A stretch of DNA of 47,680 nucleotides from a virus. Shown here in pieces: positions 920 through 47,121 of this stretch (position 1 is the stretch's first letter; each line of letters starts with the position of its first letter). The notes beneath the pieces are model-generated. The model was not told where the DNA came from. It did not search any database and worked only from the letters and a program-made list of their open reading frames with translations. Where the stretch lies: the IMG/VR virus record IMGVR_UViG_3300032278_000017, positions 1 to 47,680 of that record. The stretch is one strand, 5' to 3'. The position numbers and the translations under genes were made by a program.

Positions 920-959
920 GTTCTTTCCCTCCTTTTTTTGGGGGCAAAGTTCCTGGGGT

Positions 960-988
960 AATATAAGGGGGACCGTAAAATATCACAA
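960..988 (-). promoter_or_regulatory. Leftward sigma70-like promoter
   Basis: On the minus strand TTGTGA (988-983) is followed after 17 bases by TATATT (965-960). It lies just upstream of the AGGAGGG ribosome site of the 72-aa regulator and would drive that gene and the primase-polymerase. It was read by eye. Confidence 0.5.
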
Positions 989-1014
989 CCCTAAAGTATT
1001 CACACGATGCGGGG

Positions 1015-1043
1015 TTGACAATCAGGTCCCATCTTTCTTACCT
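1015..1043 (+). promoter_or_regulatory. Rightward early promoter
   Basis: A perfect -35 box TTGACA (1015-1020) is followed after 17 bases by a weak -10, TTACCT (1038-1043). It is the only good promoter in front of the rightward replication block. The weak -10 next to a consensus -35 would suit activation or repression by the neighbouring HTH-like protein (inference). Confidence 0.5.
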
Positions 1044-1067
1044 TAAATGTAATTAGTAAGGGGGTGA

Positions 1068-1451: not shown

Positions 1452-1455
1452 AAAA

Positions 1456-1866
1456 ATGGCTGACTCTCAAGCCTACTTCGCAACACTCGAAAGGTGGCAA
1501 GAACTAAAAGCTGCCATTACAAAGTTACAAGGTGAAGAACGTGCCTTAAGAGAGGGCCTATTTGAAGGGGCCTTCCAAACACCCGTCGAAGGCACCAACA
1601 CAATGGACCTACCTGATGGCCGCAAGCTAAAAGGTGTCTACAATATCCGTCGTACAATACGTGAAGCCGAATTCGACGACCTAAAAATCTCGCCGGCACT
1701 ACGTAAGACGCTCTTCAAGACCAAACACACTCTACAAACAACCGCATATCGTGGGTTAGATGATGAGACACGTAACAACGTAGACACAATCCTCACCATC
1801 AAACCTGGATTACCTACACTCTCTATCATCGCCGCCAAACCAGACAAAGCAGAGGTGACACCATAA
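1456..1866 (+). CDS. Hypothetical protein, DUF7173-like
   Basis: A 136-aa protein with an N-terminal helical segment (RWQELKAAITKLQGEERALRE) followed by an LPDGRKLKGVYNI motif and a C-terminal IKPGLPTLSI segment. I associate this pattern with small phage proteins found next to Sak4-type ATPases (DUF7173, from memory). Its stop codon overlaps the start of the ATPase gene by one base (TAATGG), so translation is probably coupled. The biochemical function is unknown; the position suggests a helper in recombination or replication. Confidence 0.75.
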   Translation: MADSQAYFATLERWQELKAAITKLQGEERALREGLFEGAFQTPVEGTNTMDLPDGRKLKGVYNIRRTIREAEFDDLKISPALRKTLFKTKHTLQTTAYRGLDDETRNNVDTILTIKPGLPTLSIIAAKPDKAEVTP

Positions 1867-2594
1867 TGGCGCTAACTTTCACAACAACTGCCGAAGCTGC
1901 GCGACTCCATGGTGTTAAGACTTGCACTCATGGACGAGGTGGAGTAGGTAAAACCACTCTTGTTAGAACTCTGCATGAATGGCCTTCCACTGGACCAACT
2001 CTTCTCCTCAGTGCCGAGTCGGGAGTACTTTCCTTAGGCGATGTGGAAATACCTCAAATTACTATCTCAAATTACGATGAGATGGACGAAGCCTACAACT
2101 TCATTGCTTTTAGCGAGCATGCCAAACAATTTCAGAGTGTAGCCTTAGACAGTATCTCTGAGATTGCGGAACAATGCTTACGTGGAGAGATGGCAATTCG
2201 TAAGGATGGTCGGGCAGCTTACGGTGAAATGGGTAGTCAAATGAGGGACCTCATTCGTAAGTTCCGAGACCTACCAGGAAAGCATGTGTACTTCAGTGCT
2301 AAACAGAGTAACAATAAAGATGATGTAACAGGTGTGAGCAGGTACGGTCCTTCGATGCCAGGACAAGCCTTGACTAAGGATATGCCTTACTTCTTCGATG
2401 AACTCTTTAGCATGGAAATCGGTGTATTGCCCGAAACAGGTGAGCAATACCGTTATCTTCGTACTAAGTTAGACTTACAGTTTGAAGCAAAGGACCGTTC
2501 AGGAGCTCTGGACGCGATAGAAGAGCCGCATCTCGGCAAGGTAATTGACAAGATAATGGCTCATAATGTAGCACTTAACCCTCAAGGAGTTTAA
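1866..2594 (+). CDS. Sak4-like RecA-fold ATPase (ssDNA annealing/recombination)
   Basis: A 242-aa ATPase with the Walker A motif GRGGVGKTT near residues 23-31, a Walker B-like SVALDSISE near residue 95, and MSAK-like strand YFSAKQ around residue 140. The size and motif order match phage Sak4/Rad51-like single-strand annealing ATPases, often annotated only as nucleotide-binding proteins. Sak4 proteins work with a phage ssDNA-binding protein, and such a gene follows immediately. The likely role is recombination-dependent replication and repair of phage DNA. A general P-loop ATPase with another role is the alternative. Confidence 0.8.
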   Translation: MALTFTTTAEAARLHGVKTCTHGRGGVGKTTLVRTLHEWPSTGPTLLLSAESGVLSLGDVEIPQITISNYDEMDEAYNFIAFSEHAKQFQSVALDSISEIAEQCLRGEMAIRKDGRAAYGEMGSQMRDLIRKFRDLPGKHVYFSAKQSNNKDDVTGVSRYGPSMPGQALTKDMPYFFDELFSMEIGVLPETGEQYRYLRTKLDLQFEAKDRSGALDAIEEPHLGKVIDKIMAHNVALNPQGV

Positions 2595-2600
2595 TCTCTC

Positions 2601-3266
2601 ATGGCACAATTACCATCGGCATTTGACGCTACGCAGCATGAACCTCGTACTGGTCCACCACCGCCTCTACCGTCAGATTGGTACAACAGTATCATCACGG
2701 AGAGCGAAGTAAAGCTCACCAAAAAAGGCCGAGGCGATGGTGGTGTTGCCGGCACTGGTGAGTGGTTAGTAGAACTCACTTTAAAGGTTCTCGACGGTCC
2801 TTATGTTGGTCGTCTATTTTGGGATCGCCTAAACCTCGGCAACGCTAACACAGTGGCTGTAGAGATCGCCAATTCCACTATGTCTTCTATCTGTCACGCT
2901 GTTAATGTGTTTCAAGTACCTGATACATCAGTGTTACACGGTCATCCTTTAATGGCAAGGGTTATCGAAAAGGCGCCCGAAGGCGGTTACGATGCCGGTA
3001 ATGATGTAAAAGGGTATGCTAGGATCGGGGATAAAGTTTCAAAAAATGGACAAGAAATCAAACTTGAGCCTAAACACGGCGATGCCCCAAAAACCCCTAG
3101 TCAGCCTAATCCTGCAGGGGCTTCTGAATTTACTCCACCTTGGACAGGCGAAGCAGCCCCACCAGCGGCACCGGCACCTGCACCTGTAGCCCCACCTGCA
3201 CCGGCAGCGCCGGCTGCGCCAGCAGGACCGGCTACGCCAGAAGCACCCCCTTGGGCAACGAGTTAA
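2601..3266 (+). CDS. DUF669-type single-stranded DNA-binding protein
   Basis: A 221-aa protein, ribosome site AAGGAG at 2584-2589. Residues 1-150 match the pattern of DUF669 proteins (YNSIITESEVKLTKKG, WLVELTLKVLDGPYVGRLFWDRLNL, ARVIEKAPE), which serve as phage SSB-like partners of annealing ATPases. The last ~60 residues are a low-complexity Ala/Pro linker ending in PPWATS. This resembles the disordered linker plus short conserved tip of SSBs, but without the usual acidic tip. It is adjacent to the Sak4-like gene, which supports a shared job. Confidence 0.75.
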   Translation: MAQLPSAFDATQHEPRTGPPPPLPSDWYNSIITESEVKLTKKGRGDGGVAGTGEWLVELTLKVLDGPYVGRLFWDRLNLGNANTVAVEIANSTMSSICHAVNVFQVPDTSVLHGHPLMARVIEKAPEGGYDAGNDVKGYARIGDKVSKNGQEIKLEPKHGDAPKTPSQPNPAGASEFTPPWTGEAAPPAAPAPAPVAPPAPAAPAAPAGPATPEAPPWATS

Positions 3267-3278
3267 TCCTTTTGGGGA

Positions 3279-3367
3279 AGAGAGTGCCTACAGTCCTTGT
3301 GGGAGGAGCCGGGTGGTTCAAGGTTGGTCGCCTTCATCCCGGTCTGGGTTCAATTCCCAGCCTCTCT
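3279..3367 (+). other. tRNA-like element (degenerate or non-canonical)
   Basis: Bases 3344-3360 form a clear T-arm-like hairpin: CTGGG, loop TTCAATT, CCCAG. The flanking ends AGAGAGT (3279-3285) and CCTCTCT (3361-3367) pair in six of seven positions like an acceptor stem, giving an 89-base span. A D-loop-like GTGGTTCAAGG lies inside. I could not fold a proper anticodon arm, and no CCA is encoded. It may be a decayed tRNA or an RNA structure controlling the next gene, whose ATG is only three bases away and has no Shine-Dalgarno sequence. Confidence 0.35.
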
Positions 3368-3369
3368 TT

Positions 3370-4191
3370 ATGACCACACTTAAGCGTATTGATGATTTTC
3401 TAGAAAGTAAGCAGGGTAAAGGCTTTCGCCGGCATCTTGGTGCGTCTATTATTGGCCGACCTTGCGCACGTCAACTGTGGTATACGTTTAGATGGGCACG
3501 TCGTTCTTCTTTTAAAGGTCGCATACTTCGGCTATTTCAACGAGGTCATGAAGAAGAGATACGTCTTATCAATTTTATGCGTAAGTCTGGTATCCATGTA
3601 GAAGATGTAGATCCAGATACAGGTGATCAGTATCGCATAATAGATTGGAACGGTCATTTTGGTGGATCACTGGACAGTATACTCTTTGATACACCAGAGT
3701 TTCCAATGATAGATATCCTTGCGGAATACAAGACGCATAATGATAAGAGCTTCAAAAAAGTTAAAAAAGATGGTGTAAAGAAATCGAAATATGAGCATTA
3801 TATTCAGTCCCAAATTTATATGCACTACAAAGAGTTACCTGCGGCTTTATATTTTGCTGTTAATAAGAATGACGATGAAATAGATATTCAGTTAATAGAA
3901 TACGATAGACACGAAGCTCTAAAGCATGTAGAAAGAGCTGGTAAGATTATTAATGCAGAGGCCATACCGCCACGCATACCAAATGCGAGCCCTGGATGGT
4001 ATATCTGTCAATGGTGTGATTACAAAGATGTCTGTCATCATCATGCTAAAAAAGATATGAATTGTCGTACGTGTATCCATTCTGCTCCAGTAGAAAATAG
4101 CGAATGGTTTTGCAACAAGTTTCATTGTAAACTCGAGTTTTCTGATCAACTTCGTGGATGTCTAGAACATTCTGAAATAGTGGAGGATTAA
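3370..4191 (+). CDS. Cas4/RecB-like PD-(D/E)XK nuclease with Fe-S type cysteines
   Basis: A 273-aa protein with the PD-(D/E)XK pattern: GGSLDSILFD (catalytic D near residue 102) and ILAEYKTHN (E-x-K near residues 120-124), followed by the conserved QSQIYMHY helix. One cysteine near residue 33 (GRPCARQLWY) and a C-terminal CQWCDYKDVC match the four-cysteine Fe-S site of Cas4 and AddB nucleases. A further CRTC...C..C cluster follows. The likely role is an exonuclease making ssDNA for the Sak4/SSB pair. I place the start at ATG 3370 rather than the in-frame GTG at 3313, because the extension would translate the tRNA-like element. Confidence 0.8.
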   Translation: MTTLKRIDDFLESKQGKGFRRHLGASIIGRPCARQLWYTFRWARRSSFKGRILRLFQRGHEEEIRLINFMRKSGIHVEDVDPDTGDQYRIIDWNGHFGGSLDSILFDTPEFPMIDILAEYKTHNDKSFKKVKKDGVKKSKYEHYIQSQIYMHYKELPAALYFAVNKNDDEIDIQLIEYDRHEALKHVERAGKIINAEAIPPRIPNASPGWYICQWCDYKDVCHHHAKKDMNCRTCIHSAPVENSEWFCNKFHCKLEFSDQLRGCLEHSEIVED

Positions 4192-4194
4192 ATA

Positions 4195-4320
4195 GTGAGC
4201 TACCTTTTTATAGCTTCAGGCGTTGTACTGATACTATCAATAATATCTTTAGGACTTATGCTACGGGATATCAAAGAAGAAGTTCCTCTCGATGCAATTC
4301 AATTGGATTTATTTGAGTAA
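4195..4320 (+). CDS. Small single-pass membrane protein (41 aa)
   Basis: A 41-residue frame starting at GTG with a GGAGG ribosome site eight bases upstream. It has one hydrophobic segment (YLFIASGVVLILSIISLGLM) and a charged cytoplasmic-type tail (RDIKEEVPLDAIQLDLFE). Its stop overlaps the helicase start (TAATGG). Function is unknown; the tight coupling argues it is a real gene. Confidence 0.55.
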   Translation: MSYLFIASGVVLILSIISLGLMLRDIKEEVPLDAIQLDLFE

Positions 4321-6083
4321 TGGCTGTACTGCTCGAATTCAAAGATGGACGTTATCGCTGCACCCAATGTGGCAAGGTAGCTTATACGGATCGACATAAG
4401 GCTAGCCTAGAAGCATCGGATACGCGCCCATACTTTGATGACAAATGCGGATGGTGGCATATTCCTGAAGCGTCGACTTCGAAAGATGTTATGGTTGCGC
4501 GTGATTATCAGGAAGCATGCCTTAACCACATCCATGATTACTTTGGGCAAGAGAACGGTAATCCAATTGCCGCATTACCTACGGGTACTGGCAAGTCTTT
4601 CATCATAGCTGAGTTCATTAAACGTGCTTTAGAATCTTATCCGAAAACACGAGTAATGATGCTCACCCATGTGAAGGAATTAATTGAACAGAATCTTAAC
4701 GCTCTATTAAACATCTGGCCCACTGCGCCAGCCGGCGTCTATAGTGCTGGGATTGGTCGTCGTGATCATAAAGAACCCATTACTTATGCGGGTATTCAAT
4801 CTGTTTATCGTAAACCTGAAATCTTTGGGTATATAGATATCATCCTAATTGATGAAGCCCATCTTGTGAGTAACAAAGGCACCACAATGTACCGCAAGTT
4901 TATAGGCGCACTTAGGGAGGTCAATCCACAGCTCAAGGTTATAGGCTTCACTGCTACAGCCTTTAGGCTCGGGCAAGGTATGCTAACTGATAAGGAAGGG
5001 TTGTTCGATGATGTTTGTTTCGACTTAACTGAACGTGACGCTTTTAATTGGATGATCTCACAAGGTTGGATCAGCCCCTTAATACCGAAGCGCACAACAG
5101 AACAATTAGATGTATCCGGAGTTCGCTTATCGGGTGGTGAATATATTCAAAAAGACTTACAAGAACACGTTGATCAGGATACTATTACTATAGCTGCTCT
5201 TAATGAAGCGGTTAGGATTGCCTCTCAACGTAAACATTGGCTCGTTTTTGCTAGCGGTATAGAACATGCTGAGCATGTAACAGAGCACCTCACAAATACT
5301 TTCGGAATCACCGCAAGTGTAGTTCACTCTAAACTTCAAACTGCAGAAAGAAATCAAAGACTAAGAGATTTCAAAGCCGGTCGTATTCAAGCTATGGTGA
5401 ACAATAATATCCTCACTCATGGTTTTGATTATCCAGACATCGATTGTATCGTAATGTTAAGACCAACCGCTTCACCAGGACTGTGGGTACAGATGCTCGG
5501 ACGCGGTACCCGTCCGGCTCCTGGCAAAGACAACTGTCTTGTACTCGACTTTGCTGGCAACACACAACGCCTAGGTCCGATTAACGACCCTGTCATGCCA
5601 AGGAAAAAAGGAAAGGGGCCGAAAGGCATTGCCCCCGTTCGGCTGTGCGAGGTCTGTGACTGCTACTCCCACGCCTCCTGCCGGTTTTGTCAGAATCCTG
5701 AATGTGGTGTAGAGTTTCCAAAGGCTGTTAAGATTCAAGCCTCTGCTAGTTTGAATCAACTTATTGCTGGGGACGCACCTGAGATTCGTCAGTACCCTGT
5801 ATCTCAAGTTATATATAAGGTGCATAAGAAGAAAGGCAAACCAAACTCTATGCGAGTGGAATACTATACAGGGCTGCGTAAGTTTAGTGAATACATTTGC
5901 TTAGACCATGGCGGCTACGCCTCCCGTGTTGCTCGTCAATGGTGGGAGTTAAGATCACCTTGGGGAGTACCCCCTGATGTAGAGTCTGGCTTGAAAGCTG
6001 TAGATTATTTGAAGATACCTAAAACTATATCAGTCATTGAAAACAAACGGTATCCGGAGATCGCAGGTTATGAATTCGATTGA
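4320..6083 (+). CDS. DEAH-type SF2 DNA helicase with zinc ribbons
   Basis: A 587-aa helicase. Visible motifs: an N-terminal CTQC, Q-like RDYQEACLN, Walker A LPTGTGKS (about residue 88), motif Ia TLTHVKEL, DEAH box ILIDEAH (about residue 178), motif III GFTATAF, motif V THGFDYPDID and motif VI QMLGRGTRP. After the helicase core there is a cysteine-rich zinc-ribbon-like stretch (CEVCDCYSH..CRFCQNPEC) and a C-terminal domain of about 100 residues. The layout is that of phage UvsW/RecG-like DEAD helicases used to remodel forks or branched DNA. The replicative helicase was not otherwise found, so this protein may also serve at the fork (inference). Confidence 0.88.
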   Translation: MAVLLEFKDGRYRCTQCGKVAYTDRHKASLEASDTRPYFDDKCGWWHIPEASTSKDVMVARDYQEACLNHIHDYFGQENGNPIAALPTGTGKSFIIAEFIKRALESYPKTRVMMLTHVKELIEQNLNALLNIWPTAPAGVYSAGIGRRDHKEPITYAGIQSVYRKPEIFGYIDIILIDEAHLVSNKGTTMYRKFIGALREVNPQLKVIGFTATAFRLGQGMLTDKEGLFDDVCFDLTERDAFNWMISQGWISPLIPKRTTEQLDVSGVRLSGGEYIQKDLQEHVDQDTITIAALNEAVRIASQRKHWLVFASGIEHAEHVTEHLTNTFGITASVVHSKLQTAERNQRLRDFKAGRIQAMVNNNILTHGFDYPDIDCIVMLRPTASPGLWVQMLGRGTRPAPGKDNCLVLDFAGNTQRLGPINDPVMPRKKGKGPKGIAPVRLCEVCDCYSHASCRFCQNPECGVEFPKAVKIQASASLNQLIAGDAPEIRQYPVSQVIYKVHKKKGKPNSMRVEYYTGLRKFSEYICLDHGGYASRVARQWWELRSPWGVPPDVESGLKAVDYLKIPKTISVIENKRYPEIAGYEFD

Positions 6084-6270
6084 GAAGTGGAGTGTAGACT
6101 ACAAGCGTTTGCTTACAAAAAAATTAATCAAAGAAGGTATTATTATTAATTGTGTCAACTGTGATAATTTTGATAAGCCGCAGGAAATCTGTAAACTAGC
6201 TTCACAACGTCCACCTGCTTCTGTTATCGTGACTGGATGTATTAGATGGACGGATGGATTACCGTTCTGA
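6070..6270 (+). CDS. Small four-cysteine zinc-finger-like protein
   Basis: A 66-aa protein overlapping the end of the helicase gene by 14 bases. Cysteines occur as CVNC..C and a distant GCIRW, a common arrangement for tiny phage zinc-binding proteins. The start at ATG 6070 is chosen over an in-frame TTG at 6037 because GGAG lies about 11 bases upstream of the ATG. The exact function is unknown. Confidence 0.6.
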   Translation: MNSIEKWSVDYKRLLTKKLIKEGIIINCVNCDNFDKPQEICKLASQRPPASVIVTGCIRWTDGLPF

Positions 6271-6276
6271 AGGCAC

Positions 6277-6306
6277 TTGACAAGTGGTCGAAGCAATCGG
6301 TATTAT
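6277..6306 (+). promoter_or_regulatory. Internal early promoter
   Basis: TTGACA (6277-6282), 18-base spacer, TATTAT (6301-6306) followed by AAGG. The same layout, including TTGACAAG and TATTATAAGG, recurs at 9951-9980, so these two look like members of one promoter class in the rightward block. Confidence 0.65.
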
Positions 6307-6338
6307 AAGGGGTAGAATTGACCAGTAAAGGAGTCCGT

Positions 6339-6749
6339 ATGAGTCTTACAACTCTCGGTAAGATGGAGAACGATCAGACCTTTCTTATGCCTTGGCGTAA
6401 ACCTGGCGCCCGAGCCGGTAAGATTATGCGTATTGGAGCCGGCAGTGTTGATGTCCACATCCCTAGACACGATGGGACCGGATGGGAGCGTACAGCAATT
6501 GCTCTCGAAACAGAGGTCCTCCCTTGTGACAAAGAACTATATCTGCAACAAGGGTTCGGTGAAGATGGCGCGGGTGGGCGAGTCCGTAATAAGAGCACAA
6601 TAAGAAAGCCCGTTGACATCGTTTGGGGTATGTGCAAGGATATGCCAGGAGCTACACGGGATGAGATAGTAGAGGCTTGCGTGGCTCTTGGTGTTAACCC
6701 GAACACAGCCAAGACTCAGTATTACCACTGGAGAAAGAAGCATGGTTGA
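6339..6749 (+). CDS. TARTQ-family small protein 1 (136 aa)
   Basis: First member of a five-copy family in this window. The last ~45 residues (VWGMCKDMPGATRDEIVEACVALGVNPNTAKTQYYHWRKKHG, given here only as motifs VWGMCKD and TAKTQYYHWRKK) match the other members' pattern W-x-x-C/S, then a helix, then TA[RK]TQ-x3-W. This looks like a helix-turn-helix-like unit with a basic C-terminus. The first ~90 residues are specific to this copy and resemble a small beta domain. ATG 6339 is chosen because AAAGGAG lies six bases upstream; the promoter at 6277 precedes it. DNA binding is an inference. Confidence 0.7.
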   Translation: MSLTTLGKMENDQTFLMPWRKPGARAGKIMRIGAGSVDVHIPRHDGTGWERTAIALETEVLPCDKELYLQQGFGEDGAGGRVRNKSTIRKPVDIVWGMCKDMPGATRDEIVEACVALGVNPNTAKTQYYHWRKKHG

Positions 6750-6963
6750 TCGTAAAGCTCTCCTCGAGCAAGCCCAGGATTGTGTCGCTTACCCGACTGG
6801 ACTAGACGGTCGTGACTATGAAAGGGATATAGAAGTAATACAATCGAGGTTGTTAGAAGCTATTGCTATCGGATTCGTTATAGTTGCGGATGTACTAGTT
6901 GAAGAATGTAAGAACGGCGGAGCAATTGAGAATTTAAGATGGCGAAGATCTAAAAGAACATAA
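6742..6963 (+). CDS. Hypothetical protein (73 aa)
   Basis: Not recognised. It starts at ATG 6742, overlapping the previous stop by eight bases, with GGAG at about 12 bases upstream. It is mostly helical with a hydrophobic stretch LLEAIAIGFVIVADVLVEEC and a basic end (RWRRSKRT). The segment is too polar at both ends to call a membrane span with confidence. Co-translation with the TARTQ-family gene is likely. Confidence 0.6.
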   Translation: MVDRKALLEQAQDCVAYPTGLDGRDYERDIEVIQSRLLEAIAIGFVIVADVLVEECKNGGAIENLRWRRSKRT

Positions 6964-6973
6964 ATAGGGCGCC

Positions 6974-7003
6974 TGTCTTCCCGTCCTTAATAGCAGGAAG
7001 ACA
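6974..7003 (+). promoter_or_regulatory. Hairpin in the leader of the 99-aa gene
   Basis: TGTCTTCC (6974-6981) and GGAAGACA (6996-7003) form a perfect 8-bp stem with a 14-base loop. It is followed within 15 bases by AAAAGGAG and the start at 7027. There is no U-tract, so an mRNA-stabilising or regulatory hairpin is more likely than a terminator. Confidence 0.45.
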
Positions 7004-7026
7004 AACTCTCGAAAAGGAGTAGTACC

Positions 7027-7326
7027 ATGGCCGAACAGGCCGATGCAGGGACGGCGACAGTAGAGGCACCTCCAAAGCAGCCGTCACAGAATGGAGTTAC
7101 CCGTCCGAAGACAGGAACAAAGACGGGGCGCGTGTGGGAGATTTCTGACGAGCTCTCAACTTCCGATGGCCCCGCAGCTCGCAAGGACGTGATGGCAGCT
7201 GGTGAGGCAGAAGGACTAAACTCTGCGACCATCGCCACTCAGTACGGTCGGTGGAGGAAGTTCCACGGTCTTGGAAGAGCAGCGGTTGCCGCCGCTTCTG
7301 AAGACACCGCAGAAGTCGAGGAGTAA
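7027..7326 (+). CDS. TARTQ-family small protein 2 (99 aa)
   Basis: Second family member. An Ala/Thr/Pro-rich, probably disordered N-terminus (residues 1-35) leads to the family core VWEISDELS...ARKDVMAAGEAEGLNSATIATQYGRWRKF (core motif here SATIATQYGRWRKF). The ribosome site AAAAGGAG is strong and codon use is GC-rich compared with neighbours, as in the copies near 43-47 kb. It sits between a leader hairpin and a terminator-like hairpin, so it may be an independently expressed, abundant protein. Function unknown; a small nucleic-acid-binding protein is plausible. Confidence 0.7.
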   Translation: MAEQADAGTATVEAPPKQPSQNGVTRPKTGTKTGRVWEISDELSTSDGPAARKDVMAAGEAEGLNSATIATQYGRWRKFHGLGRAAVAAASEDTAEVEE

Positions 7327-7357
7327 CCTGAGCAGGTAATATGTTACTCTGGCAACT

Positions 7358-7393
7358 AGGAGGGTACGGCTCCTAATCGAGTCGTGCCCTCCT
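7358..7393 (+). terminator. Terminator-like hairpin
   Basis: AGGAGGGTACG (7358-7368) pairs with CGTGCCCTCCT (7383-7393), 11 bp with one G-U. It is followed by a weak T-rich stretch TCTTGTCC. It lies between the 99-aa gene and queE, and may only partly terminate because no strong promoter is obvious before queE. Confidence 0.5.
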
Positions 7394-7416
7394 TCTTGTC
7401 CTCACCGGAGAAATTA

Positions 7417-8145
7417 ATGCTAAACGAGCAAGTTCCTTTATCTTCAGATTACCATGATGAAGGATTTATAAAAGTACATTCAATGTTCAACACCATCCAA
7501 GGTGAAGGACCATACGCAGGATATCCAGCTCTTTTCGTACGACTATATGGATGTAATCTTCAGTGTCCTATGTGTGATACTGAATACACGAAAGAATATG
7601 AGCAATACAATCCTATGCACTTAGCGCAGGAAGTAAAATCCCGACTACAACTGATGCACAAGTTGTCGGTGCCCAAGATGAACCCACTTGTGGTGATTAC
7701 AGGGGGTGAACCTCTTCGTCAGAACATTCGTCCTTTCGTAGACTATTTATTAGGCATGGATTTTCTTGTTCAGATCGAAACTAATGGTGTCTTTTATTTG
7801 GATCTTCCATGGGGCCATGATTCTTTAACTGTTGTATGTAGTCCGAAGACAGGGAAGATTCATCCTAAAACAGCAACGCGTGTTCATGCTTATAAGTATG
7901 TGCTATCGAGTGATGGCGTAGCTGAAGATGGCTTACCTATCGCGGCCTTGGGGCATCCTCTTGGTAAGTATGCGCATGTCGCTAGGCCTCCAGATAATTG
8001 GTCTGGACCTGTTTATCTAAATCCTTTAGATGCAGTTAACGATAAAGCTAATAATAAGAACCTTCAAGCCGTTGCGCAATCTGTTACGACGCATGGTAGA
8101 TACATCATGGGTGTACAGATGCACAAACTTATAGGACTACCATGA
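7417..8145 (+). CDS. queE: 7-carboxy-7-deazaguanine synthase (QueE), radical SAM
   Basis: A 242-aa radical SAM enzyme that turns 6-carboxy-tetrahydropterin into 7-carboxy-7-deazaguanine (CDG). Seen: FNTIQGEGPYAG, characteristic of QueE; the cluster-binding CNLQCPMC (C-x3-C-x2-C); and VITGGEPLRQ for SAM binding. ATG 7417 is chosen because GGAG is ten bases upstream, while the in-frame start at 7384 lies in the preceding hairpin. The gene overlaps queC by four bases and starts the deazapurine cassette. Confidence 0.95.
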   Translation: MLNEQVPLSSDYHDEGFIKVHSMFNTIQGEGPYAGYPALFVRLYGCNLQCPMCDTEYTKEYEQYNPMHLAQEVKSRLQLMHKLSVPKMNPLVVITGGEPLRQNIRPFVDYLLGMDFLVQIETNGVFYLDLPWGHDSLTVVCSPKTGKIHPKTATRVHAYKYVLSSDGVAEDGLPIAALGHPLGKYAHVARPPDNWSGPVYLNPLDAVNDKANNKNLQAVAQSVTTHGRYIMGVQMHKLIGLP

Positions 8146-8960
8146 CCAAATGCTTAGTAGTACTCTCTGGAGGACAAGATTCAACTACTTGCCTCTTTTG
8201 GGCAATAAAACGATTTGGCGCAGGTGCTGTTTCTGCTGTAACTTTTGACTACGGACAAAGACATAAGCGCGAAATTCTTTCGGCTCGTATGATAGCAAAC
8301 CGTGTGGGAATTGAACATGAGATTATAACGCTTGGCGATGATATCTTAAAAGGTACATCTCCTTTAGTTAACTCAGAAGAGGAACTGGAAGAGTATGCAG
8401 ATCACCAGTCCTTACCAGGAGGTCTCGAGAAGACCTTTGTACCTATGCGGAATCAATTGTTCCTTACTATTGCGGCTAACAGAGCTTATGTACTTGGATG
8501 CAATACACTTGTGACAGGTGTAAGCAATGAAGATTTTGGTGGGTATCCAGATTGCCGACCAGATTTTATAGAAGCCTTTATAAGGGCTTCCTCAATAGGT
8601 ACCTTTACAGAGGATTCGTTAAGAGTATTGACACCCTTAATGGATTTAGATAAAGAAGCAACTGTTCACCTTGCCGTTAAACTTGGGTTCGGGTGCTACG
8701 AGGCGCTTGGCCTTAGTCACACATCATATGATGGACAATACCCACCGCAAACTAAAGATCATGCTACACTACTCAGGGCCAAAGGGTTCGAACTCGCAGG
8801 TGTGCCTGATCCGTTAATATTACGCGCCTATGAAGAAGCTCGCCTTAACGTGTATCCTGATACCAAAAACTATTTAGGCTCTGCGATTTTCCCACACCGC
8901 CGGATGATTACTGATTTAGTTGCATGGGTCGAAGAATGGGAGAAAACTTATGCCACATGA
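8142..8960 (+). CDS. queC: PreQ0 synthase-type enzyme (QueC), zinc cysteines absent
   Basis: A 272-aa PP-loop ATPase; SGGQDSTTC at residues 9-17 is the nucleotide-binding loop. QueC converts CDG first to the amide ADG and then to the nitrile preQ0. The C-terminal part keeps the family frame (SYDG..., LLRAKGFELAGVPDP), but the four cysteines that bind zinc in characterised QueC are replaced. The usual SCYN position reads TSYDG, and the usual CGxCxxC reads QTKDHAT. Asp/His/Thr could in principle still contact a metal. It is translationally coupled to queE (ATGA overlap) and overlaps queD. Assignment to QueC is firm; whether it performs both steps is uncertain. Confidence 0.9.
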   Translation: MTKCLVVLSGGQDSTTCLFWAIKRFGAGAVSAVTFDYGQRHKREILSARMIANRVGIEHEIITLGDDILKGTSPLVNSEEELEEYADHQSLPGGLEKTFVPMRNQLFLTIAANRAYVLGCNTLVTGVSNEDFGGYPDCRPDFIEAFIRASSIGTFTEDSLRVLTPLMDLDKEATVHLAVKLGFGCYEALGLSHTSYDGQYPPQTKDHATLLRAKGFELAGVPDPLILRAYEEARLNVYPDTKNYLGSAIFPHRRMITDLVAWVEEWEKTYAT

Positions 8961-41270: not shown

Positions 41271-41930
41271 TTAGGGTGTACCAGTAGCGTCAGCCGCTCT
41301 GTCTGAATCCGACTCTATGAAAGCTACAGGGCCTGATGCGGCATCTATCTGACTAAAGTCTTCTGTCTCTTCAAGTTGTTCACTAGTTGGCCCTAATTCG
41401 GCAGATTCACCATTAGGAAGAACAAAGTTGACGTTAACCGACAAAGGTGCTCCGCCAGGTCCGCCTATATCTATACTATCATGGAACATACTATGAACAC
41501 GAGCAAGATCCCTAAGAGCAGCCACAGAATCGTGAAACTCAATCTTAGGGTTCCCATTACTATCAAAACTAAAGCTCTTAATGAATTGACTATTTTCGAT
41601 AACAGCTTCGTTGTCTACTCTTAGAGCTCCTGTACGGGGATCGCATTTGACAATGTCACCCATCTCAGATCGAGCAATCTCAGTAAACCGAAGGAGCACT
41701 TCTGTAGCATCCATAGTGTGGGCATCTAGGCGTTCCTGTATGTATGCGCGCACGTTGGGGTGCCGAAGAAGTTTAGAAGCGTTACCGGAGTTATTTGATT
41801 CGGGGATTACATAGCCGGCGAACTCATAAGCAGCCCGCCCATTGAATCGCTTACCAGTATTTGCGCCAGTAAGCCATTCATCGGCGAACATCTTCTGTTT
41901 TGCACGTAATTTACCGACCGCTGTACTCAT
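41271..41930 (-). CDS. Terminase small subunit
   Basis: A 219-aa protein with the Terminase_2 pattern: KLRAKQKMFADEWLTGANTG, AAYEFAGYVIPESNNSGNASKLLRHPNVRAYIQERL (short motif ASKLLRHPNVRAYI) and VLLRFTEIARSEMGD, ending in an acidic tail. It recognises phage DNA for packaging. ATG 41930 overlaps the upstream stop (TAATG); a longer start at 41957 is less likely. Two small TM genes separate it from the large subunit. Confidence 0.85.
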   Translation of the reverse strand: MSTAVGKLRAKQKMFADEWLTGANTGKRFNGRAAYEFAGYVIPESNNSGNASKLLRHPNVRAYIQERLDAHTMDATEVLLRFTEIARSEMGDIVKCDPRTGALRVDNEAVIENSQFIKSFSFDSNGNPKIEFHDSVAALRDLARVHSMFHDSIDIGGPGGAPLSVNVNFVLPNGESAELGPTSEQLEETEDFSQIDAASGPVAFIESDSDRAADATGTP

Positions 41931-42175
41931 TAGGCGTCTTCTCCCGGTGACATCCATCCTGCTGTGGGATCACAAATAAAGCATTCGCGTCCAGCTTTTA
42001 CTTCAAGCCCACAGCCATCACAGATTCTTGATCCGGCATGGAAATCCCATTGACATAACCAACAGTACCGCTCATTCTCTTCACTTTCGGAAGAACAACG
42101 AGGGCAATGGATAGTTATCTCGAAGGTACGAGGAATATCATATACAAAAATGGTATCCGAAGGTAAAAAAGTCAA
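41930..42175 (-). CDS. Double zinc-ribbon protein
   Basis: Up to 81 aa with four cysteine pairs: CPRC, CWLC, CDGC and CFIC, which can build two zinc ribbons. The only in-frame start I see is TTG 42175, with no good ribosome site, so the start is uncertain. It lies just before the terminase small subunit; a nucleic-acid-binding accessory is plausible. Confidence 0.6.
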   Translation of the reverse strand: MTFLPSDTIFVYDIPRTFEITIHCPRCSSESEENERYCWLCQWDFHAGSRICDGCGLEVKAGRECFICDPTAGWMSPGEDA

Positions 42176-42615: not shown

Positions 42616-42814
42616 CGTAAGAGGCCTCCGCACTAACAGGCTCCGTTAAAGGTGTCTGCCCAGTCTTGCTGCGTAGCAAGGTAGTGTACGATTCAACCCA
42701 AGCAAGGATTTCGCGGTCGGAGAGGTGGGCTTCAAGGATACAACGATCCAAGGCACAGAACAGAGCGCCCTTGGGTGTAAGCCGGCTGGCCGTATGCTCC
42801 TCAATAATAATCAT
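42602..42814 (-). CDS. Hypothetical protein (70 aa), first late-operon gene
   Basis: Start ATG 42814 with AAGGAG seven bases upstream. A helical protein (RLTPKGALFCALDRCILEAH, SDREILAWVESYTTLLRS) of unknown function. A promoter lies just upstream, so it heads the long leftward late operon. Confidence 0.65.
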   Translation of the reverse strand: MIIIEEHTASRLTPKGALFCALDRCILEAHLSDREILAWVESYTTLLRSKTGQTPLTEPVSAEASYDVAI

Positions 42815-42858
42815 GGTTTGCTCCTTAGAAGCGGAATTGGTCGTTTTTCTTATTTTAT

Positions 42859-42888
42859 AAAATAGTGAATGACTCATGGGTTTGTCAA
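42859..42888 (-). promoter_or_regulatory. Likely late promoter
   Basis: Minus strand TTGACA (42888-42883), 18-base spacer, TATTTT (42864-42859), then an AT-rich stretch and the AAGGAG of the 70-aa gene. No other strong promoter was noticed upstream of the structural genes, so this may drive the operon to 14091. Confidence 0.6.
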
Positions 42889-42969
42889 GTAGATCGTGAG
42901 GGTATGCTTCTAGAAGTGAATTTGAGGATTTTGCCAAAAGCATGTGCTGGTGACAAACCCGCAGTAGGC

Positions 42970-43016
42970 AAAAAAAAGATCCAAAACGGATACCCCCGCC
43001 CCCGATGGTGGGGGCG
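42970..43016 (-). terminator. Intrinsic terminator of the 106-aa gene
   Basis: Minus strand CGCCCCC, loop ACCATC, GGGGGCG (stem 42997-43003/43010-43016), then a smaller ATCC/GGAT hairpin and eight Ts (42977-42970). Confidence 0.75.
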
Positions 43017-43032
43017 AGGGGCCGCGGTGCGG

Positions 43033-43353
43033 TCAGCCGTCGATCACAACGCCACGAGGCGTCGCGCCAACCGATCCCTCGTTGAACCATTTCAGGTAAG
43101 CCTGCACCTGAGTGCGCGCGGTGTAGTAGGCGACGCCCATTTCCTGACCCGCCTTGTTGAGGTCCCGACGCGCTGGAGGCGTGCCGCCATTCTCTTCCGT
43201 CATGTTGAGGCACATCACCCAAGTCCGCGCGATCGGGTAGTCGACCGTCGAAGCGCCCCGACGGTTCTCTGGTGCCACTCGCTCTGGTGCCACGAAGGTG
43301 GCTGTGGCGGTGGCCTCTGGGGCCGTCTTCTCTGTCGGTGTCTTCTTCGCCAT
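43033..43353 (-). CDS. TARTQ-family small protein 3 (106 aa)
   Basis: Third family member, starting MAKK with AGGAG upstream. N-terminal Ala/Thr/Pro region with VAPENRRGASTVD, then the core TWVMCLNMTEE..., GVAYYTARTQVQAYLKWF, ending PRGVVIDG. It is strikingly similar to the 105-aa protein at 44532 (shared RGAST-D, YYTARTQVQAY, PRGVVI), so the two are recent duplicates in opposite orientation. GC-rich compared with most genes here. It has its own promoter and terminator, so it is a single-gene unit. Function unknown. Confidence 0.75.
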   Translation of the reverse strand: MAKKTPTEKTAPEATATATFVAPERVAPENRRGASTVDYPIARTWVMCLNMTEENGGTPPARRDLNKAGQEMGVAYYTARTQVQAYLKWFNEGSVGATPRGVVIDG

Positions 43354-43397
43354 TTTGTTGCTCCTGGTGCGTTGGCCGATTTCATTATCGACACCTA

Positions 43398-43457: not shown

Positions 43458-43461
43458 GAAT

Positions 43462-43477
43462 TGTTGTCTGGACAACA
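43462..43477. promoter_or_regulatory. Operator-like palindrome TGTTGTCT-G/A-GACAACA (copy 1)
   Basis: TGTTGTCTGGACAACA, perfect apart from its centre. A second copy with a perfect centre lies at 44953. Both sit beside TARTQ-family genes. Confidence 0.6.
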
Positions 43478-43539: not shown

Positions 43540-43570
43540 CATAATTATACACTCAAGATGTATAATTATG
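43540..43570. promoter_or_regulatory. Long perfect AT-rich inverted repeat
   Basis: CATAATTATACA (43540-43551) and TGTATAATTATG (43559-43570) are exactly complementary with a 7-base loop. A TTGACA lies at 43504-43509 on the plus strand. No gene follows on that strand nearby. Operator, cruciform or RNA hairpin are possible. Confidence 0.5.
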
Positions 43571-43598: not shown

Positions 43599-43630
43599 CA
43601 TGTCAGAATGACAGCATGTCAGAATGACAG
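43599..43630. repeat. Tandem 16-bp repeat (CATGTCAGAATGACAG x2)
   Basis: Two exact copies, 43599-43614 and 43615-43630; each contains the inverted repeat TGTCA-GAA-TGACA. GGAGC at 43574 and GCTCC at 43595 precede it. A related tandem pair is at 44995-45030. Confidence 0.7.
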
Positions 43631-43672
43631 TGTCCACTTTTGGCTCCACCTCGAGGATCAGGCGCAGATTCG

Positions 43673-43764
43673 GGATTTTCAGCCGATTTTCATAATCACG
43701 GGATTTTCATCCTCAGGATTTTCTTCCGGGATTTTCTTCTTCGGGATTTTCTTCTGGGATTTTC
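43673..43764 (+). repeat. GATTTTC array A (7 copies)
   Basis: Seven GATTTTC units, six of them as GGATTTTC, all in the same orientation with irregular 4-9 base spacers. They fill the noncoding stretch between the 106-aa gene's upstream region and the terminator of the small TM genes. From 43360 to 43795 no gene was seen. Confidence 0.75.
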
Positions 43765-43795
43765 TAACACGTAAGGATCTAGATCCTCAGCAATA

Positions 43796-43823
43796 CAAAA
43801 AAAATAAGCGCCCCGAAGGGCGC
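43796..43823 (-). terminator. Intrinsic terminator of the small TM genes
   Basis: Minus strand GCGCCC-TTCG-GGGCGC (43823-43808), followed by TTATTTTTTTT. A textbook hairpin with UUCG loop. Confidence 0.85.
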
Positions 43824-43830
43824 CCACCTT

Positions 43831-43965
43831 TTATCTAAGGCGTCGCATCCGGCGCCTCTCCTCATTAACAGCCCTCTCAACCATTGCCTCATAAGATACC
43901 GCGAACCAACAGATCCCAATAAGGAAGAAAGCAACGCCGATTATAAACAATAGTAGAGTTTCCAT
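43831..43965 (-). CDS. Small membrane protein (44 aa)
   Basis: ETLLLFIIGVAFFLIGICWF forms one membrane span, then a charged, Arg-rich helix (ERAVNEERRRMRRLR). The ATG directly follows the stop of the 66-aa TM gene, and a strong terminator follows, so both form one transcript. It could be a lysis or envelope protein; function unknown. Confidence 0.6.
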   Translation of the reverse strand: METLLLFIIGVAFFLIGICWFAVSYEAMVERAVNEERRRMRRLR

Positions 43966-44256: not shown

Positions 44257-44434
44257 GGATCAAGATCCGGATCTAGCTGAGGTTCATAGTGGCAATCCCG
44301 AACGAAGGATCAAGATCCGGAGCAAGAGCCGGCAATGTCGTATCGCAGCCGGCGGATGAGCACTTGCTGCACGGACTGCATAAATATAGCGCCTTTGCTC
44401 GAATGTGTCAAGGGCTCAAAGGATCAAGATCCGG
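44257..44434. repeat. GGATCAAGATCCGG repeats, cluster D (3 exact copies)
   Basis: Exact copies at 44257-44270, 44307-44320 (50 bases apart) and 44421-44434. Each holds the dyad GGATC-AA-GATCC plus GG. The stretch 44241-44447 has no gene; it lies between divergent units and contains a strong minus-strand promoter. Confidence 0.8.
44383..44411 (-). promoter_or_regulatory. Consensus promoter pointing into noncoding repeats
   Basis: Minus strand TTGACA (44411-44406), exactly 17 bases, TATATT (44388-44383). Downstream are two GGATC dyads and then the second promoter at 44240. It would give the TM genes a 200-base leader or drive a separate small RNA. Confidence 0.65.
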
Positions 44435-44447
44435 TTCTAAAGCGGGG

Positions 44448-44476
44448 TTGACTTATGGAGGATCAGTCGGTAAATT
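44448..44476 (+). promoter_or_regulatory. Promoter of the 105-aa gene
   Basis: TTGACT (44448-44453), 17-base spacer, TAAATT (44471-44476). An AGGAG lies seven bases before the ATG at 44532. A GGATC dyad ends 14 bases upstream of the -35. Confidence 0.6.
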
Positions 44477-44531
44477 TAGTCAGGTTACAGCACGAGGCTC
44501 TAACCACACTAGCAACACTAGGAGCAGCACA

Positions 44532-44849
44532 ATGGCAAAGAAGCAAGCCAAAGACGCCGCACCGCCCGCAGCAACGGCGGTCTTCGTCAAGCCGGAGACA
44601 GTCGCACCGGCGAATCGTAAGGGTGCGTCGACGATCGACAATCCGGTCGGCGAGACCTGGATCACCTGCATCAACGCTACCGCCGCAAACGATGGAGCGA
44701 TGCCGGAGCGCAAGGTGCTTAATCAGGCAGCGATGGATCGGGGAGTGGCGTACTACACGGCGCGGACACAGGTGCAAGCCTACCGCAAGTGGTTCGTCGC
44801 AGGAGCAGACCCAACTCAGGGGCTGCCGCGAGGCGTTGTCATCGGGTAA
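44532..44849 (+). CDS. TARTQ-family small protein 4 (105 aa)
   Basis: Starts MAKKQAKDAAPP at ATG 44532 with AGGAG; a longer frame upstream runs through noncoding repeats and is rejected. After an Ala/Pro-rich stretch comes VAPANRKGASTID, then TWITCINATAAND, the core GVAYYTARTQVQAYRKWF and the end PRGVVIG. It is nearly a twin of the 106-aa protein at 43033 but on the other strand. GC-rich. It has its own promoter and a large terminator hairpin. Probably abundant and nucleic-acid binding; function not known. Confidence 0.75.
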   Translation: MAKKQAKDAAPPAATAVFVKPETVAPANRKGASTIDNPVGETWITCINATAANDGAMPERKVLNQAAMDRGVAYYTARTQVQAYRKWFVAGADPTQGLPRGVVIG

Positions 44850-44863
44850 CGCACTCACCACCC

Positions 44864-44906
44864 GCTGTCAAGGGGGAGCGCTAGCACAGGCTCCCCCTTC
44901 GACAGC
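44864..44906 (+). terminator. Large terminator hairpin
   Basis: GCTGTCAAGGGGGAGC (44864-44879) pairs with GCTCCCCCTTCGACAGC (44890-44906), 16 bp with a one-base bulge. There is no U-tract, so termination may be incomplete or the stem may protect the mRNA end. Confidence 0.65.
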
Positions 44907-44915
44907 AGCCCGAGA

Positions 44916-44929
44916 GGATCAAGATCCGG
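44916..44929. repeat. GGATCAAGATCCGG copy
   Basis: Exact copy of the cluster D dyad, followed by a partial repeat (AGCTAGATCCGGAGCTAGAT). Confidence 0.75.
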
Positions 44930-44952
44930 AGCTAGATCCGGAGCTAGATTCT

Positions 44953-44968
44953 TGTTGTCTAGACAACA
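44953..44968. promoter_or_regulatory. Operator-like palindrome TGTTGTCT-A-GACAACA (copy 2)
   Basis: TGTTGTCTAGACAACA is a perfect 16-bp palindrome; it differs by one base from the site at 43462. Confidence 0.65.
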
Positions 44969-44994
44969 GTCATTTTGACAGGAGCAAAAAGGCT

Positions 44995-45030
44995 CCATGT
45001 CATCATTTTGTTCCATGTCATCATTCTGTT
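44995..45030. repeat. Tandem 18-bp repeat (CCATGTCATCATT... x2)
   Basis: CCATGTCATCATTTTGTT (44995-45012) and CCATGTCATCATTCTGTT (45013-45030), differing at one base. It follows a GGAGC...GCTCC hairpin (44981-44996), as at 43574-43630. Confidence 0.7.
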
Positions 45031-45047
45031 CCAGCAGTGGAGCAAGG

Positions 45048-45144
45048 GGATCAAGAGGATTTTCGTGATTTTCAGTTGATGATAAGGATCATGACGATTT
45101 TCGGGATTTTCAGTTTAAAGGATCAAGAACCGGATCAAGATCCT
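45048..45144 (+). repeat. Mixed GATTTTC/GGATCA array B
   Basis: Four GATTTTC units (from about 45058 to 45110) between GGATCAAG elements near 45048 and two overlapping dyads GGATCAAGAACCGG/GGATCAAGATCC at 45120-45143. The stretch 44907-45156 holds no gene. Confidence 0.7.
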
Positions 45145-45156
45145 CTTCTGGCTACA

Positions 45157-45181
45157 GAAAAGGCGCCCCGTAAAGGACGCC
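45157..45181 (-). terminator. Terminator of the leftward small-gene operon
   Basis: Minus strand GGCGTCC (45181-45175), loop, GGGGCGCC (45169-45162), followed by TTTTCTG. 7 bp with one G-U. Confidence 0.65.
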
Positions 45182-45188
45182 AGTTCTG

Positions 45189-45497
45189 CTACTCGTAGTG
45201 CGGTGTGTGCTCTGGATACGAGTAAGGAATATCGTTCCAGACCTCGGCCTGATAGTGACCCCCGCTGTAGTTAACGGATTGTATGGGGAGCCGCCCGTAA
45301 GGAATCTTACGTTGCTCATGCCGCCTGAAGGCCAGAGTTCGATTAAAGCGCCGGCTGTAATCGTACGCCTTCTCCTCATCCGAATCTGGAAAGGCCTTCA
45401 CGACCTTCATCAGGTCGCCGGTGGTGAACCACCAGCCTCCTTCCTCGGGTCCGCCGTATACTCTATCGAGTTCGAACACCGCCACGAAGATCACCAT
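45189..45497 (-). CDS. Hypothetical protein (102 aa)
   Basis: AGGAGGGC before the ATG; overlaps the 86-aa gene by seven bases. Tyr- and Arg-rich with MVIFVAVFELDRVYGG at the start and YSYPEHTPHYE at the end. Last gene of a four-gene leftward operon that is closed by a terminator. Not recognised. Confidence 0.65.
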   Translation of the reverse strand: MVIFVAVFELDRVYGGPEEGGWWFTTGDLMKVVKAFPDSDEEKAYDYSRRFNRTLAFRRHEQRKIPYGRLPIQSVNYSGGHYQAEVWNDIPYSYPEHTPHYE

Positions 45498-45751
45498 GCC
45501 CTCCTAGACTTGAGGATCTGGTTGAGCTCCTTCTTAACTCTCCTGGCTACCTCACCCCTCCACGTCGTCGCGTTACTCAAAAAGTAAGCAACCATTTGCT
45601 CACCAGTATCGGCGAAGAAGTTATCATCGATGCTATAGAGCGAGTCCATGGCATCCAGATAAGGGACTGCGGCGTAGTTTGGCTTTTTCCAGTCGCTCCT
45701 AATTTCCGAAGCGATAACGTGAATAGGCCGTTGCTCCTCAACCTGCGTCAT
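45491..45751 (-). CDS. Conserved phage small protein (86 aa)
   Basis: PIHVIASEIRSDWKKPNYAA, VPYLDAMDSLYSIDD, and TWRGEVARRVKKELNQIL are patterns I recognise from small proteins of unknown function common in phages of actinobacteria and other hosts. Probably an intracellular host-interaction protein. The ATG overlaps the upstream stop by four bases. Confidence 0.7.
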   Translation of the reverse strand: MTQVEEQRPIHVIASEIRSDWKKPNYAAVPYLDAMDSLYSIDDNFFADTGEQMVAYFLSNATTWRGEVARRVKKELNQILKSRRAW

Positions 45752-46011
45752 AAGTACCTCCTGTCCTCTGAGTTAAAAGGTGTGCTCCATTCGAGCCCCA
45801 GTACGTGCGGGAATAAGGAGCGTTCGAAGTCCGTGCCTCGCTCACAAACATGGACACGTCCGCTGCTGTTATAATGACGTGGGGCAGCGCCTCCCACGAC
45901 GACATACTCCGTCTGCTCGGAGGTAATGTGATCTCCTCGCTCCAGAACTATGCCGGTTCCCTTGCGGACAAGAATTAGCTTCCTGCCCGAGTAGTCGATA
46001 CTTTCAATCAT
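45748..46011 (-). CDS. Hypothetical protein (87 aa)
   Basis: ATG 46011 overlaps the previous stop (ATGA), with AAGGA nine bases upstream. Beta-rich (YSGRKLILVRKGTGIVLERG, TEYVVVGGAAPRHYNSSGRV). A small beta barrel is possible. Function unknown. Confidence 0.65.
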   Translation of the reverse strand: MIESIDYSGRKLILVRKGTGIVLERGDHITSEQTEYVVVGGAAPRHYNSSGRVHVCERGTDFERSLFPHVLGLEWSTPFNSEDRRYL

Positions 46012-46280
46012 GATGGGTGTCCTTGCCTCGCATTCTCGAGGGCGACGCACTCTGTGATGTTCTTCTGGGCGTCTTCGGACAGGTGCTTCCACACTTGCTC
46101 TGTACAACGAATCTGAGCGTAATCGCTAGGGGTCATCCCCCATTCGATCTGCTCTTGGGTCACTGTCGGCAGCTTATCCAGCACGCCGTACAGCTCCCGA
46201 TGCGTATCCATGGTGATTCCATCCATGGTCTCAGCTACCTGATCGGGAGTCATGAACTGCATTTCGAACGGTGCGTCCAT
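46008..46280 (-). CDS. Hypothetical protein (90 aa), first of the leftward operon
   Basis: ATG 46280 has AGGAG eight bases upstream; the longer in-frame ATG at 46316 overlaps the promoter -10 and has no ribosome site. Helical, acidic (PDQVAETMDGITMDTHREL, SEDAQKNITECVALENA). A TATATT-like -10 is at 46327-46322 but the -35 is weak. Function unknown. Confidence 0.65.
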   Translation of the reverse strand: MDAPFEMQFMTPDQVAETMDGITMDTHRELYGVLDKLPTVTQEQIEWGMTPSDYAQIRCTEQVWKHLSEDAQKNITECVALENARQGHPS

Positions 46281-46394
46281 CGTGCTACTCCTGTTGAGTG
46301 GGCTGGCTTCTTCCATGTATTAATATAACGCAATCACTCAACGGTCACCAGACCGATCAGAAAATTAGCATCTTCATGAAAAGATCGTAAGTAG

Positions 46395-46572
46395 GGATCA
46401 AGAACCGGCGCTTGATGAGGATCAAGATGCGATTCTAGATCCCCATACCTTTAGGATCAAGATGCGGATCTAGAAGCGGATCAAGAACCGCCGTTAGATC
46501 CTACCGCAATTTTCGATTTTCAGGAGCATAATATCACACGTGATTTTCAGGATCAAGATCATGCGCGTGATT
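46395..46572. repeat. Mixed GGATCAAGA/GATTTTC array C
   Basis: GGATCAAGAACCGG (46395), GGATCAAGATGCGA (46419), GGATCAAGATGCGG (46454), GGATCAAGAACCGC (46478) and GGATCAAGATCATG (46550), with CTAGATCC fragments between, and three GATTTTC units (about 46515-46572). The stretch 46328-46583 contains no gene; this is upstream of the four-gene leftward operon. Confidence 0.75.
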
Positions 46573-46583
46573 TTCAGCTAAGA

Positions 46584-46615
46584 CAAAAAAAGAGGCCCCA
46601 TCCGAAGATGGAGCC
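46584..46615 (-). terminator. Intrinsic terminator of the 157-aa gene
   Basis: Minus strand GGCTCCATC-TTCG-GATGGGGCC (46615-46594), 9 bp with a UUCG loop, followed by TCTTTTTTT. Confidence 0.85.
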
Positions 46616-46647
46616 CCCGAGAACGGCATTCAAGCCCTTCGCCGGCA

Positions 46648-47121
46648 TCAGGCGTCGGGACCGTCCTCTCCCTCTTCAGGGTGGAGAGCCTTGGGCAGCT
46701 CATCCAGGCTGAGATCCGACAAACGACGAGTACCTTTATCCGTCGCGGTGAACCAAGCCTGGAACTGAGTCCGCGCTGTGTAATACGCGATCCCTTCCTC
46801 CTGAGCCAGGGCTACAACCTCGCTCCTCTTAGCCCTGTCCTCTGGAGCGGCTCCAGCGACCACAGTGTCGCAGAGCTCCCATACTGCGGCAACAGGGGAC
46901 TCGGCCGTGGACTTTCCACGAAGAGCTGGGTCAGGGAGATTGGCTCCGGCCACGATGGCCTCATAGATCTCGGTTTTCGTCCCGCCTGCATCAATCTCGA
47001 TCTCCATCGCCGACGCTTTCTCAACCAATGCTGCTTTGGTGTGCGCCCGGATGAAATCATCAGATGGGATGGTCCGTAATTGCTTACGGATCTCGACGGG
47101 TGTTGCTACTGCATCGCTCAT
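46648..47121 (-). CDS. TARTQ-family small protein 5 with SAP/HeH-like domain (157 aa)
   Basis: Fifth family member. ATG 47121 with AAGGAG upstream. Residues ~27-62 (TKAALVEKASAMEIEIDAGG, then TKTEIYEAIV) look like a HeH/SAP/LEM-type helix-extended-helix motif, a known DNA- or RNA-binding module. The family core follows (AVWELCDTVVAG, GIAYYTARTQFQAWF), then an acidic tail (LHPEEGEDGPDA). The extra motif is the best clue that this family binds nucleic acid. Own promoter (47200) and terminator; GC-rich. Confidence 0.75.
   Translation of the reverse strand: MSDAVATPVEIRKQLRTIPSDDFIRAHTKAALVEKASAMEIEIDAGGTKTEIYEAIVAGANLPDPALRGKSTAESPVAAVWELCDTVVAGAAPEDRAKRSEVVALAQEEGIAYYTARTQFQAWFTATDKGTRRLSDLSLDELPKALHPEEGEDGPDA

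Follow-up and report, generated by a model that had tools for sequence, protein, structure and literature searches.

Introduction

Iteron origins of replication are made of direct repeats, and phage P4 has a separate ori and crr; in phage P1, the pac site carries Dam-controlled GATC hexamers upstream of the gene for the small terminase subunit. Dispersed polar binding sites are known from few phage groups. The stoperators of the cluster A mycobacteriophages L5 and Bxb1 are short asymmetric words in many copies, oriented mainly one way with transcription and drifting in consensus among relatives; they number 20 to 30 sites genome-wide and have a known repressor (PMC6550527). The repeats of halovirus HF2, which are 29 or 58 bp long and bear promoters, are confined to intergenic spaces and keep their position among relatives (PMC8707807).

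The window analysed here, a single stretch of 47,680 nucleotides, covers the greater part of an uncultured siphovirus genome, of which it is a fragment. Near its right end, noncoding gaps hold arrays of a 12-bp unit containing GGATC, together with a second word, GATTTTC. These resemble stoperators in being short, asymmetric, repeated, variable among relatives and uniformly oriented (12:0 for the unit core GGATCAAGA and 14:0 for GATTTTC in the array region). Unlike stoperators, the GGATC units lie together within 3 kb instead of being dispersed over the genome, as GATTTTC is, and they form 12-bp tandem runs accompanied by a second word. As in HF2, the repeats are intergenic and positionally conserved, although the unit is only 12 bp long and an internal sigma-70-type promoter is not conserved. 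Direct repetition in one orientation near a primase-helicase gene is shared with iteron origins and with P4 ori/crr, but the arrays occupy several gaps; GATC hexamers upstream of terS are shared with P1 pac, but the arrays are spread over kilobases. Our tentative reading, to which we give not quite even odds, is that a phage-encoded DNA-binding protein recognises the arrays as clustered, polar sites; the TARTQ proteins are the foremost candidates for this role. The sequence evidence comprises a 12/6-bp frame, a fixed orientation, confinement to gaps, the GATTTTC companion and conservation above that of the surroundings.

Genomic context of the arrays

The structural genes of the window are leftward, and polA, a sliding clamp gene and queuosine/7-deazaguanine genes including a DpdA-like transferase are rightward; the phage carries both dpdA and que genes. 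The left end of the window (1-700) is the N-terminal part of a primase gene, and a contig of a near relative (L304, positions 156-8724) bridges the right end (47680) to the left end through genes that, by reading their sequence, we name primase, VRR-NUC-like and phosphoribosyltransferase. Judged from L304, the stretch missing from the window would be roughly 6 kb. The array region is made up of operons of small genes located between those for primase and terminase; terS (41271-41957) lies 1.7 to 4.6 kb downstream of the arrays. No Dam gene was identified among the genes examined.

Two polar words in noncoding gaps

The noncoding gaps between 44.2 and 46.6 kb contain 12 plus-strand copies of the core GGATCAAGA, and the genes of the array region contain none. 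Noncoding DNA beyond 42.9 kb totals 2,540 bases and includes these 12 copies, as against two in the other 45 kb, both intragenic (23169 on the plus and 42026 on the minus strand); 12 of the 14 copies fall within 2.3 kb; the Fisher p of about 4e-14 for this clustering is descriptive, the region having been picked on account of the motif. With up to 3 mismatches allowed, GGATCAAGATCCGG has 24 matches in the window, compared to a mean of 3.8 and a maximum of 9 in 100 dinucleotide shuffles. A preliminary description of this DNA had reported about ten dyads restricted to noncoding gaps, with exact copies at 44257, 44307, 44421 and 44916 and variants at 45120, 45132, 46395, 46419, 46454, 46478 and 46550. 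Every one of these coordinates is correct, and within the array region the restriction to gaps holds, the core not being equally frequent in coding regions; the statement that the motif is absent elsewhere in the window needs amending only for the two intragenic strays. That description missed a further core at 45048 and degenerate in-register units at 43775, 44269, 44319, 44928 and 46466, as well as the longer frame to which the dyads belong, and it was silent on GATTTTC.

This frame is 12 bp long with a 6-bp sub-step and reads (C/A)GG-NN-C-(A/T)AG-NN-C in the motif direction; its fixed letters belong to the search pattern, so only the free positions are informative, and AT predominates in both NN pairs, with AA, AG, CG or TT as the alternatives. 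Most of the arrays tested show autocorrelation maxima at 12, 24 and 6. A plain dimeric operator is disfavoured because the site, though nearly palindromic, is strictly polar.

The second word reads GAAAATC on the terminase-gene strand. Outside the arrays, no 7-mer of the window is more strongly strand-skewed than this word (16:2 vs 3.9 expected), and a near relative has the same bias (TGAAAATC, 5:0). In other lineages this polarity is not seen outside the arrays; we therefore reject it as a general genome-wide feature and record it with caution. Intrinsic curvature by phased A-tracts was also rejected, since the GATTTTC spacings (9, 11, 13, 15, 27 or 37 bp) are not consistent multiples of the helical turn.

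The exact 14-mer was found in 120 stretches of viral contigs, each with a single chance-like match, and in a stricter 21-mer scan only L304 gave several matches. A nucleotide search of phage records returned no match. In addition, 64 genome contigs held one match each, and a host or prophage source was thus not found.

Organisation of the arrays gap by gap

Read as the leftward genes run, gaps 1, 3 and 4 share one order: the end of a gene, its intrinsic terminator, the array and finally the following gene, headed by its presumed promoter. The same succession of terminator, array and next gene recurs in L285, L132, L287 and L288. Gap 2 lies between divergent genes. The earlier placement of the motif beside promoters is apt for gap 2 and otherwise loose, as most arrays are closer to terminators than to promoters.

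The gap-1 array (43655..43786, plus strand, aligned with L285) contains a degenerate GGATCAGGCGC at 43655, seven GATTTTC words (43674, 43685, 43702, 43717, 43730, 43745 and 43758) and the unit GGATCTAGATCC at 43775-43786. Read leftward, it starts about 12 bp beyond the intrinsic terminator of the leftward gene (43799..43832, minus strand), which is conserved in L285. The array gaps also contain other short tandem words, such as two copies of CATGTCAGAATGACAG at 43599-43630 of the window, and a perfect 12-bp inverted repeat with a 7-base loop (CATAATTATACA/TGTATAATTATG) is found at 43540-43570; L285 has runs of ATGTTCAT at 4286-4356 and 1628-1740.

Plus-strand unit runs follow at 44257..44285 (GGATCAAGATCC GGATCTAG CTGAGGTTC) and 44307..44334 (GGATCAAGATCC GGAGCAAGAGCC). 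Between two divergent sigma-70-like promoters sits a single plus-strand unit, GGATCAAGATCCGGTTC (44421..44438), which is exact in L285. The leftward promoter, TTGACA-17-TATATT (11/12; 44383..44411, minus strand), is conserved in L285, as is the -35 box of the promoter of the TARTQ2 gene, TTGACT-17-TAAATT (44448..44476, plus strand). A coding role for the units was considered, as units can be read in frame upstream of TARTQ2 (44289-44531), and rejected: TARTQ2 has its own promoter and start, and L285 conserves this start together with the ribosome site.

Three tandem 12-mers, GGATCAAGATCC GGAGCTAGATCC GGAGCTAGATTC (44916..44951, plus strand), are followed in gap 3 by the palindrome TTGTTGTCTAGACAACA, also written TTGTTGTCTRGACAACA (44952..44968). 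A second copy of the palindrome lies in gap 1 (43461-43477), and by its sequence it is a candidate operator of another protein. The gap-3 array proper (45048..45145, plus strand, aligned with L285) runs from GGATCAAGAGG through four GATTTTC words and GGATCATGACG to the units GGATCAAGAACC GGATCAAGATCC (45120-45143), and adjoins an intrinsic terminator at 45162..45181 on the minus strand.

The gap-4 array (46395..46501, plus strand) consists of two blocks of four 12-mers, 46395-46442 and 46454-46501, each an imperfect large palindrome. Three more GATTTTC words and the unit GGATCAAGATCA (46550) occupy 46515..46576 on the plus strand, and the adjoining terminator (46591..46618, minus strand) is conserved in L285. 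Folding of this gap exceeds that of shuffled sequences, with z-scores of -4.75 in the window, -4.55 in gap 4 of L285 and -3.70 in the L286 array, and two GAAAATC copies in L286 sit in hairpin loops, as might be expected of an RNA-level element in which hairpins or repeated GAAAAUC binding sites would be present on read-through or antisense transcripts. We consider such an element highly improbable: gaps 1, 2 and 3 fold like shuffles (z -0.7 to -1.1), the gap-4 fold is strong on both strands, as palindromic DNA would give, most arrays lie beyond a terminator, and an Rfam search returned nothing reaching the gathering score.

We also asked whether the units could be promoters, using a sigma-70-type scan. 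Only two of them (46556 and 46460) supply a TTGATC -35-like hexamer with a rightly spaced -10, and the -10 of the 46556 case is absent from L285; this role was rejected.

Conservation in a near relative

The near relative L285/L304 was found through its TARTQ proteins. Its contig and L128 share a sample of origin, and the L128 terminase has 94% identity to that of the window. L285/L304 contains about 20 in-frame units and 28 GATTTTC (GAAAATC) words, mostly in the matching gaps. Over four aligned gaps, identity between the window and L285 is 78% for units, 92% for GATTTTC and 93% for terminators, compared to 59% for the rest. None of 1,321 label rotations reached the word-conservation value. 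Part of the excess is probably an alignment effect, however, as any one repeat can be paired with several copies. In gap 2, the exact 14-mer AGGATCAAGATCCGGTTC at 44421 is kept in L285 at the same distances to both divergent -35 boxes, while its flanks have changed.

The genes between the same arrays differ, the window having two small ORFs where L285 has another pair. This difference, and the uniform orientation of the repeats, fit recombination boundaries at which accessory cassettes swap or are deleted through same-orientation repeats, with no protein reader. We regard this explanation as distinctly unlikely, in that words differing by lineage are of less value as shared homology, and a unit held at fixed spacing between promoters suggests more than homology. 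In L285 itself, a 55-bp promoter segment is tandemly duplicated at 3497-3633, with the copies 96% identical and 82 bp apart.

TARTQ proteins and further lineages

Five TARTQ paralogues are encoded in the window. The genes for TARTQ1 (106 aa; 43033..43353, minus strand), TARTQ2 (105 aa; 44532..44849, plus strand, divergent from its neighbours) and TARTQ3 (157 aa; 46648..47121, minus strand, whose terminator is followed by the gap-4 array) lie in or beside the array region, while two further paralogues (matches at 6579-6743 and 7009-7278, plus strand) have no arrays nearby. The predicted structure of TARTQ1 has three helices, with pLDDT >90 over most of them. Structure comparison gave weak, generic three-helix matches (Foldseek E 0.8 or worse, VIA Z 7.0 or less), HTH proteins being among those of TARTQ1.

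GATTTTC arrays lie upstream of the TARTQ1 orthologue in each of the six lineages found (the window, L285/L304, L132/L284, L286, L287 and L288), nearly all in the terminase-sense orientation. In L304 and L283, and possibly in L291 and L288 as well, further GAAAATC arrays follow the VRR-NUC-like gene. While GATTTTC is constant, the GGATC word varies by lineage: the second word is GGCGC/GGAGC in L132, AGCGCC/GGATC in L286, GGAGC/GCTAGC in L287 and CTGATC in L288. The array-bearing phages have related primases (57-62%). Cultured relatives with polymerases about 54% identical lack both the arrays and TARTQ1. The co-occurrence of arrays and TARTQ1 is not independent, however, because the lineages form one clade.

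Since TARTQ1 accompanies the arrays everywhere and has three confident helices, the TARTQ proteins are natural candidate readers, although TARTQ paralogues are also present in phages without arrays. The earlier suggestion of binding sites for a regulator or for TARTQ proteins is the best fit to the conserved islands, the spacing at 44421 and the GATTTTC arrays before TARTQ1; its TARTQ part is tempered by the generic three-helix fold of the model. A phage protein, perhaps one TARTQ paralogue, would dock on the arrays and act at the DNA level on autonomous small-gene operons, by repression, activation or a block to read-through at operon boundaries. The lineage-variable GGATC word may be read by a paralogue or by another, faster-evolving protein. 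A system of one constant and one lineage-variable word beside a small paralogue family makes the specificity of reader and site directly testable.

Words that vary by lineage would likewise be expected if initiators and origins co-evolved, the arrays then being replication iterons, to whose direct repeats the phage primase-helicase would bind, in several clusters as in P4 ori/crr. The clusters are uniformly oriented, lie within about 8 kb of the primase gene and adjoin a minimum of cumulative GC skew, and the divergent gap before the L304 primase has no repeats of its own. By analogy such a role is conceivable, yet we judge it unlikely: units fill several inter-operon gaps (four in the window and more in L304) instead of one locus, the skew turn tracks gene direction equally well, and an A+T-rich unwinding stretch is not established. 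The spread across several gaps, over about 3 kb, is mildly against any single origin or pac site.

GA/TC composition near the terminase gene

The arrays might instead mark the place of terminase or 7-deazaguanine action, with GATC hexamers resembling those of P1 pac. They are dense in GA and TC (34.6 per 200 bp vs 25.3 in the rest of L304), an enrichment that follows trivially from the words. In L285, L286, L287 and L288 they lie near, and upstream of, a zone without any GA or TC dinucleotide, which spans TARTQ1 with its flanking DNA at a short distance from terS, on the upstream side: 671 bp in L285 (857-1526, equal to L304 13452-14121), 888 bp in L286 (2016-2902), 579 bp in L287 (3769-4346) and 711 bp in L288 (6860-7569). 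The phage has dpdA and que genes, and DpdA in phage CAjan modifies GA and GGC sites (PMC8306585). A marking role remains quite unlikely on these analogies, given that terS is 1.7 to 4.6 kb downstream of the arrays and that the orthologous stretch of the window, 42634-43360, is normal and has no such zone.

Proteins encoded in the zones contain no Asp and no Glu, and the constraint therefore appears to act at the DNA level. A link between the zone and DpdA (GA/GGC) modification is a guess. Among the four zone phages, only L286 is connected to dpdA, which is carried by L291/G022, probably the remaining half of its genome; as for L285, L287 and L288, their records are fragments excluding the polymerase region, so the absence of dpdA from them is uninformative. 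It is very unlikely, in our estimation, that GA/TC-dense arrays and a GA/TC-free zone jointly encode, in their sequence, where the DNA upstream of terS receives 7-deazaguanine modification. Were this so, the phage would fix which of its own DNA is heavily modified and which unmodified, and terminase or a TARTQ landmark protein could find the spot. More generally, the clade may link DNA-modification context to sequence composition near packaging genes. In the other loci fetched, GA/TC-free runs reach at most 366 bp (L277), the next longest being 256 bp. The zones of L285 and L287 are also nearly free of GC.
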